A DNA stretch of 64,000 nucleotides from Rarobacter incanus. GTDB taxonomy: Bacteria > Actinomycetota > Actinomycetes > Actinomycetales > Cellulomonadaceae. Positions 37,588 to 38,947 of the stretch are shown piece after piece. The position numbers were made by a program, and so were the translations under genes. Where the stretch lies: assembly GCF_006715765.1 (NCBI RefSeq), contig NZ_VFNV01000001.1, positions 2,170,001-2,234,000 of the forward strand, given 5' to 3'. The notes under the pieces are model-generated. The model saw nothing but the letters and a program-made list of their open reading frames with translations, was not told the origin of the DNA and ran no database searches. Position 1 is the stretch's first letter. Every line of letters begins with the position of its first letter.

Positions 37588-37812
37588 CTAGAGCGCGCCG
37601 AACCCCACCCGGTAGTGGGTTTCCGCCCCAATTTCGATGTAGGCAATGCTGGCGGCGGGGACCAGCACGGTGCGGCCCTTGGGATCGGTCAGGGAAAGCA
37701 GCGTCCCTTTGTCAATCGCGTCCTTGATGCGGTCGGCGACCTCCGATGCTGTGCTGTCCACCTCGACCGACAGTTCGCGCGGGTTGTTCTGGACTCCGAT
37801 AGTGATCTCCAC
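37588..37812 (-). CDS. DUF3107 family protein
   Basis: A 74-residue acidic, ubiquitin-like-sized protein ([20 protein letters not shown]), matching the actinobacterial DUF3107 family, which is typically 73-75 residues. GTG start at 37812 with AAGGAGATA upstream. Encoded divergently beside sigR, as in other actinobacteria. Function unknown. Confidence 0.88.
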
Positions 37813-37893: not shown

Positions 37894-37919
37894 GGAATGT
37901 TCCGTTCGCCACGAGCGTT
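37894..37919 (+). promoter_or_regulatory. SigR-type promoter GGAAT-N18-GTT upstream of sigR
   Basis: GGAAT at 37894-37898 and GTT at 37917-37919, separated by exactly 18 bases: the known consensus for SigR/SigH promoters (GGAAT, 18-19 bases, GTT). Predicted transcription start is about 37925-37928. It implies autoregulation of sigR-rsrA. Confidence 0.85.
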
Positions 37920-38012
37920 ATCACTAGCGTGCCGACCGTGAACTCGACCTTAGATAGACCGCCTCTGGTTCGTGCCGCGTCCCGGGACGCGGGCCGGGTA
38001 GTCTTGCGGGTA

Positions 38013-38669
38013 ATGGATACAAACCGCGCCCCCGTGAGCGAAGCGCAGGCAGATCGCCGTGAGCGATTCGAGCGCGACGCGTTGCAGTACCTCGACCAGT
38101 TGTATGCCGCCGCGCTGCGTATGACGCGTAACCCGACCGATGCGGAGGACCTGGTCCAAGAGGCCTTCACCAAGGCCTTTGCCGCGTTTCACCAGTACCG
38201 TCCGGAAACGAACCTAAAGGCGTGGCTGTACCGGATCTTGACGAACACGTACATCAACACGTATCGCAAGAAGCAGCGCGAGCCGAAACACTCTGCGACC
38301 GATGAGATCGAGGATTGGCAGATAGCGCGGGCCCAGTCGCACACCTCGACGGGCCTGCGCTCCGCGGAGATGGAGGCGCTGGACCGCCTGCCCAACGAGG
38401 ACATCAAGCAGGCACTCGCGCAACTGCCGGAAGATCGCCGGGTGGCCGTTTACCTCGCGGACGTCGAAGGTTTCCCGTACAAGGAAATCGCCGAAATGAT
38501 GGGTACGCCGATGGGCACGGTCATGTCCCGCCTGCACCGCGGCCGGGCGCAATTGCGCGAACTTCTCGCGGATTACGCGAAGCAACGGGGCCTGGACGTG
38601 GGCGATGAACACCGATCCGCTTCCCCCGCGCAGGATGTACGGTCCGAAGTCGAGCAGGAGGACAAATGA
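38013..38669 (+). CDS. sigR: ECF sigma factor SigR/SigH (thiol-oxidative stress)
   Basis: An extracytoplasmic-function sigma factor that directs the disulfide-stress response. The start at ATG 38013 ([19 protein letters not shown]) gives 218 residues, the usual size. Region 2 shows [35 protein letters not shown]; region 4 shows [41 protein letters not shown]. The frame stays open upstream, and GTG codons at 37929 and 37938, just after the predicted SigR-dependent start site, could give forms with 28 or 25 extra residues. rsrA overlaps by four bases (ATGA). Confidence 0.93.
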
Positions 38670-38947
38670 GTCACCAGGCCAAGCCCTGCGGTCAATCCCC
38701 GGCAACGGGCGGTCCCTGTGATTGCCAGGAGGCCTACGAGCACCTTCTTGAGTACCTGGACTCGACGCTCAATTCGACCAGCGCCGATCGCATTCGGGCG
38801 CACATCGAGAGCTGCGAGTCGTGTTCGTCGGACGCCATTACCTCTGAGATCGTGCGGAAGCTGCTTCGCAGGTGTTGCATCGAGCAGGCGCCCAGCGAAT
38901 TGCGGGTGCGGATCGTGCAAAGGTTGAGAATTATCGACGAGGCCTGA
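38666..38947 (+). CDS. rsrA: Zinc-binding redox anti-sigma factor RsrA
   Basis: A 93-residue ZAS-family anti-sigma factor that holds SigR inactive when reduced and releases it when its thiols form a disulfide. The ZAS signature H-x3-C-x2-C is seen as HIESCESC; an upstream Cys in [13 protein letters not shown] completes the zinc site. A further Cys pair (RRCC) lies near the C-terminus. Overlaps the sigR stop by four bases, so it is translationally coupled and made in step with its target. Confidence 0.93.

Follow-up and report, generated by a model that had tools for sequence, protein, structure and literature searches.

Two nested promoter and start-codon pairs, each predicted to be leaderless, may specify short and long forms of SigR in Rarobacter incanus and related actinobacteria

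The sigR gene of R. incanus raises the question of whether one gene encodes two forms of a redox sigma factor and, if so, how the cell would choose between them. The gene lies within a 64,000-nt stretch of R. incanus DNA, which we designated the window. Its product matched the SigR/SigH family (TIGR02947, 348 bits against a cut-off of 251.55), and the SigR proteins closest to it in the named collection, from which records very near the window may be missing, were those of Rarobacter faecitabidus (87% identity) and Micrococcales bacterium KH10 (85% identity). The adjacent rsrA encodes an anti-sigma factor (TIGR03988, 69.3 bits against a cut-off of 62.5; zf-HC2) with the motif HIESCESC, which fits HxxxCxxC. 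The divergent neighbor of sigR, on the minus strand at 37588-37812, encodes a DUF3107 protein. As judged from its sequence, the autoregulatory promoter of SigR/SigH-RsrA pairs, GGAAT-N18-GTT, lies 5' of sigR-rsrA. The original prediction had identified this site as an exact SigR promoter and had proposed that two in-frame GTG codons extend SigR by 25-28 residues. Both claims held: the promoter is present at 37894-37919, and GTG 37929 and GTG 37938 share the sigR frame and add 28 and 25 residues, respectively, before ATG 38013 with no stop between. The locus is arranged as follows.

37894-37898, plus strand: -35 element of sigRp2 (p2), GGAAT, an exact match to the consensus
37917-37919, plus strand: -10 element of sigRp2, GTT, after an N18 spacer
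37929-37931, plus strand: GTG, 9 nt past GTT, where the leaderless p2 transcript and the long form of SigR are both predicted to begin
37929-38012, plus strand: 28-codon N-terminal extension of the predicted long isoform, an open frame
37999-38004, plus strand: predicted -10 element of sigRp1 (p1), TAGTCT, SigA-like, 8 nt 5' of ATG 38013
38013-38669, plus strand: sigR short form, 218 aa plus stop, with TIGR02947, Sigma70_r2 and r4_2 matches
38656-38661, plus strand: AGGAGG, Shine-Dalgarno sequence of rsrA
38666-38947, plus strand: rsrA, zinc anti-sigma factor, overlapping sigR by ATGA

The arrangement was compared across 210 distinct sigR loci, 30 in a discovery set and 180 in a test set. The discovery loci came from relatives of R. 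incanus, 29 from its own family and one from the family labeled f5. The test loci were drawn from 30 class-wide loci, 30 order-wide loci, 80 named loci and 80 regions spanning 38 family labels; five loci without an anchor and all duplicates were removed. The own family was represented by 81 loci, 42 by assigned family label and 39 named loci by genus name. Many family labels stand on one locus each, and locus counts do not equal independent events because the loci share ancestry. Upstream of sigR, one locus titled Sphaerisporangium cinnabarinum was identical to Cellulosimicrobium funkei at 308 of 317 positions, and its label is probably wrong. A p2-like promoter was defined as GGAAT or GGAAC, N17-19 and GTT, and was sought in the 900 nt 5' of sigR. 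The single-contig genome (2,486,262 bp) contains 127 GGAAT-N18/19-GTT sites on both strands, a density at which about 0.01 sites would be expected per strand in 450 nt. A p2-like promoter was found on the sigR strand of 204 of the 210 loci and on the opposite strand of one. The genomic site frequency and this strand-specific recurrence ruled out a chance match.

The distance from p2 to sigR varies widely; across the own family, p2 lies 107-545 nt from the codon that aligns with 38013. In the discovery set, the promoter lay within 450 nt in 28 loci, and all 28 had an ATG or GTG in the sigR frame 8-10 nt past GTT, whatever the distance to sigR. The spacing prediction was fixed on this set before the test loci were taken. 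Such a codon was present in 126 of the 210 loci, at 9 nt in 101, at 10 nt in 13 and at 8 nt in 12. These included 80 of 81 own-family loci (28/29 discovery, 52/52 test) and 46 of 129 others. The one own-family exception was without an exact p2, and its GAAAT variant with an in-frame start was recognised only later. Named own-family carriers include Cellulomonas, Promicromonospora, Isoptericola, Sanguibacter and Oerskovia. The start was also found in Georgenia, Oceanitalea, Nesterenkonia alba, Paeniglutamicibacter sulfureus and one Kineosporia, in every locus sampled from families f2, f3, f9, f12, f13, f14, f18, f23, f25, f32, f40, f43, f46 and f52 (between 1 and 5 loci per family), in 8 of 12 f45 loci, and in 1/4, 1/3 and 1/2 of those of f5, f35 and f38, respectively. 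It is not universal, since 78 p2-bearing loci were without it, including Streptomyces, Arthrobacter, Pseudokineococcus and most sampled Kineosporia.

RNA polymerase is reported to prefer a purine at +1 (PMC3898074), and the recurring ATG or GTG could be read as a transcriptional preference for the initial sequence that has nothing to do with translation. Such a preference would ignore the sigR frame. At the same 8-10 nt, out-of-frame ATG or GTG codons were counted in 9 loci in one frame and in 1 locus in the other, 10 counts against 126 in-frame loci, and the frame stays open to sigR in all 126; we consider this explanation extremely unlikely. At the genomic sites, ATG or GTG lay 8-10 nt 3' in any frame in 16 of 127 cases, or about 4% per given frame. 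The 126 starts comprised 74 GTG and 52 ATG codons, with no TTG or CTG. Mycobacterial leaderless translation is reported to require ATG or GTG, with CTG and TTG failing (PMC4633059), and this rule was satisfied in 126/126 loci. The spacing, the frame and the choice of codon thus lend strong comparative weight to the proposal, made in the original prediction, that the induced promoter itself would create the longer form by near-leaderless initiation.

The position of the start could be narrowed further by published numbering. In C. glutamicum SigH promoters aligned at GTT, the fifth base of GGAAT is given as -31, and N18 is the commoner spacer, in 5 of 6 promoters of Table 3 (PMC10012870). This numbering and spacer would put +1 nine nt past GTT, with GTT itself spanning -12 to -10; the placement is exact only where -31 denotes the N18 form. 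The predicted +1 therefore falls at 37929 or one base before it, rather than near 37926 as had been proposed, and GTG 37929 is the likely long start. GTG 37938, named as an alternative start, did not fare as well: although TAGCGT lies 7 nt upstream of it, an in-frame start 18 nt past GTT was present in only 4 of 80 own-family loci, and this candidate was set aside. The TAGCGT sequence could itself be a SigA-like -10 element that overlaps the p2 start region (37925-37940).

A second promoter motif, which the original prediction missed, lies in front of the short form. The sequence TANNNT was found exactly 8 nt before the short-form ATG, in frame, in 177 of the 210 loci (81/81 own family, 96/129 others). 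In the searched stretch, TANNNT-N8-ATG occurred 178 times in frame and never in the other two frames. Among the 119 loci that have both the long start and p1, the hexamer is TAGGCT in 97, while the window has TAGTCT. Within the 36 open reading frames of the window, TANNNT preceded an in-frame ATG or GTG by 6-8 nt nine times, compared to once out of frame; p1 itself and the site before GTG 37938 account for two of the nine. Start sites in M. tuberculosis are reported to lie 7-12 bp downstream of the center of the TANNNT motif (PMC3898074), from which a p1 leader of 0-2 nt would be expected; the 8-nt spacing could leave a leader of 1-2 nt. The motif was missing from Streptomyces (7/7) and from f22 (6/6). 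Column frequencies across the own family stayed below 70% everywhere upstream of -4, and neither a conserved -35 element nor an AT-rich WblC-type site was found at p1.

The p1 -10 element sits inside the extension, and the codon over its first bases was CTA in 95 of 119 loci, compared to 20 of 2110 downstream leucine codons. Retention of this rare codon indicated that the DNA, and not the peptide, is conserved at p1. An LGS peptide before the short start, considered as a protein feature, is instead accounted for by the -10 sequence. These observations bear on the reading that the long form is the sole SigR, with TAGTCT and ATG 38013 in chance proximity and with p2 or read-through supplying all of the protein. 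ATG 38013 is without a Shine-Dalgarno sequence in the window and would be poorly used without p1, as that reading supposes. The recurrence of TANNNT-N8-ATG, however, extends even to families f6, f7 and f17, which are without a leaderless p2 start and keep p1, and together with the prevalence of TAGGCT and the kept CTA codon makes a sole long form very unlikely. With TAGTCT 8 nt before ATG 38013 and TANNNT-N8-ATG so widely repeated, both isoforms probably arise from leaderless mRNAs of their own.

The distribution of Shine-Dalgarno sequences was consistent with two leaderless starts. A Shine-Dalgarno core preceded 99 of 119 rsrA starts (taken as the ATG or GTG nearest the sigR stop), compared to 14 of 119 long sigR starts and 1 of 119 short ones. 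The stretch 5' of the long start is promoter DNA and would not be transcribed from p2. The window could nonetheless follow the layout of Streptomyces, in which the p2 transcript would carry a leader, the long form would begin at a Shine-Dalgarno-led codon further on, and GTG 37929 would be incidental. Seven Streptomyces loci (f37) were recognised by AGGAGGTGGGTCCGGTC, which was assembled from codons quoted in PMC5472188. In all seven, the first in-frame ATG lies 49-129 nt past GTT behind a purine-rich stretch (AGAGGAAG in 4/7), and it precedes GTC by 58 codons in four and by 59, 70 and 75 in the others, which fits the published extension of 58 residues (PMC5472188). An in-frame GTG was found at 0, 13 or 14 nt in three of the seven and at 8-10 nt in none. 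In contrast, 80/81 own-family loci keep the start at 8-10 nt. The window has no in-frame ATG between p2 and 38013; besides 37929 it offers just GTG 37938 and TTG 38004, and no Shine-Dalgarno sequence was seen before any of the three. A Streptomyces-like layout is therefore improbable here.

If the long start is used, the stretch between it and ATG 38013 should be coding. No stop was found between the long start and sigR in any of the 126 loci, while a first-order Markov model expected one in 46 of the 119 loci that also have p1. Frame +2, with stops in 23/119 loci, was used as a control alongside the Markov expectation; frame +1, with stops in 111/119, would be an unfair comparison, as both RTGA starts and the TAG within p1 create stops there. 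Counted from GTT to sigR, stops occurred in 18 of 78 p2 loci without the start, compared to 1 of 126 with it. Two of those 18 are Streptomyces loci, whose stops precede their own ATG and leave that extension unbroken. Extension length in the 119 loci with both the long start and p1 ranged from 12 to 102 aa (median, 46). The shortest belongs to an f23 locus (L226) from a genome of about 1.7 Mb, where the start lies 36 nt before the p1 ATG and encodes 12 residues; a stop there precedes the start codon and is outside the extension.

Composition and substitution pointed to translation with little selection on the peptide. GC content by codon position was 0.728, 0.685 and 0.824 in the extension and 0.625, 0.438 and 0.955 in the core, a weaker coding pattern in the extension. 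In 18 ungapped pairs of related loci, differences by codon position numbered 87, 90 and 133 in the extension and 12, 11 and 169 in the core. Extension codons with a single change included 79 synonymous and 102 nonsynonymous changes, a synonymous fraction of 0.436 against 0.291 expected. The extension thus looks translated under light constraint, as far as the comparison of sequences can indicate. A conserved peptide function was rejected, since the constraint is no more than weak. At residue 3 of the extension, 34 of 80 own-family loci have Cys and the window has Thr; a Cys so near the N terminus of a thiol-stress factor may merit interest.

Taken as a whole, the locus probably carries two promoter/start-codon pairs, each leaderless, so that the choice of promoter would be the choice of isoform. 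The SigA-type p1 would start transcription 0-2 nt before ATG 38013 and yield ordinary SigR with no Shine-Dalgarno leader. The SigR-dependent p2 would start transcription on GTG 37929 and give a leaderless mRNA encoding SigR with 28 extra N-terminal residues. The p2 transcript should give mainly the long form, since a leaderless start depends on a 5' end and no Shine-Dalgarno sequence precedes the internal ATG. In resting cells p1 would supply short SigR, bound by RsrA; thiol stress would free SigR, p2 would fire and the long form would be added. The actual transcript starts, leaderless translation and use of each promoter in each state are what we infer from these arrangements. A second SigR target may also be leaderless, because a gene for a 220-aa DSBA-domain protein in the same genome has, at G000:C1:1621084-1621122 (L262:85-123), GGAAT-N18-GTT with its opening ATG 10 nt downstream.

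What the long form would do is suggested by analogy. The induced, longer and unstable SigR' of S. coelicolor with its negative feedback, which the original prediction invoked, agrees with PMC4921905 and PMC5472188, where SigR' is reported to have a half-life of about 10 min and to be a Clp substrate, respectively. By this analogy the long form in R. incanus would be rapidly degraded and Clp would drive the feedback. It is possible, though we lean against it, that the long form is stable here and merely raises the dose of SigR or alters RsrA binding; the extension varies among loci in sequence and in length and is weakly constrained, as this would allow, and the short half-life and Clp degradation of the S. 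coelicolor form argue the other way. More broadly, a leaderless, promoter-encoded isoform switch, in which nested promoters for the housekeeping sigma factor and for the gene's own product are each fused to a start codon of the same frame, may recur across much of the class, with the leadered Streptomyces version as one of several departures; we hold the chances of this wider proposal to be about even.

SigR' has been documented in Streptomyces. If the present reading is true, a long, stress-made SigR is widespread in actinobacteria and predictable base by base from sequence, and the stress form would escape any annotation that opens sigR at ATG 38013. Two natural leaderless starts within a single gene would also suit asking whether leaderless translation persists, and helps, under thiol stress or ribosome-targeting antibiotics. 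No report of the paired leaderless sigR arrangement was found among the open-access papers searched. The principle of such isoforms is already known, and what appears to be new is the paired leaderless layout together with how widely it is conserved.

Several known systems share parts of this arrangement. S. coelicolor sigR is described as having two promoters, a SigR-dependent upstream p2 and a downstream p1, with p2 adding an in-frame N-terminal extension (PMC5472188, PMC4921905), and the window likewise has an in-frame extension that starts downstream of p2. The Streptomyces long form, however, begins at an ATG well behind p2, whereas the window has GTG 9 nt past GTT; short SigR of Streptomyces uses AGGAGG and GTC, whereas both starts in the window, GTG and ATG, appear leaderless; and the extension is 55-58 residues in Streptomyces compared to 28 in the window. 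C. glutamicum sigH-rshA is an orthologous pair with the same promoter consensus, yet it is reported to have four housekeeping promoters and a SigH promoter that drives rshA alone, and sigH autoregulation is reported as rare in Corynebacterium (PMC3489674, PMC10012870). Compared to the leaderless genes described in mycobacteria (PMC4633059, PMC3898074), the window has two nested leaderless starts of the same frame served by two sigma factors, of which one is encoded by the gene itself. Outside the SigR family, the nearest mechanism found is VirF of Shigella as described in PMC5101355, in which one autoregulated regulator gene gives two N-terminal forms, VirF30 and VirF21, one of them also made from a leaderless mRNA that an internal promoter supplies. 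In Shigella the shorter form is leaderless and represses virF, whereas in the window both forms seem leaderless and it is the long form that would be induced by stress.
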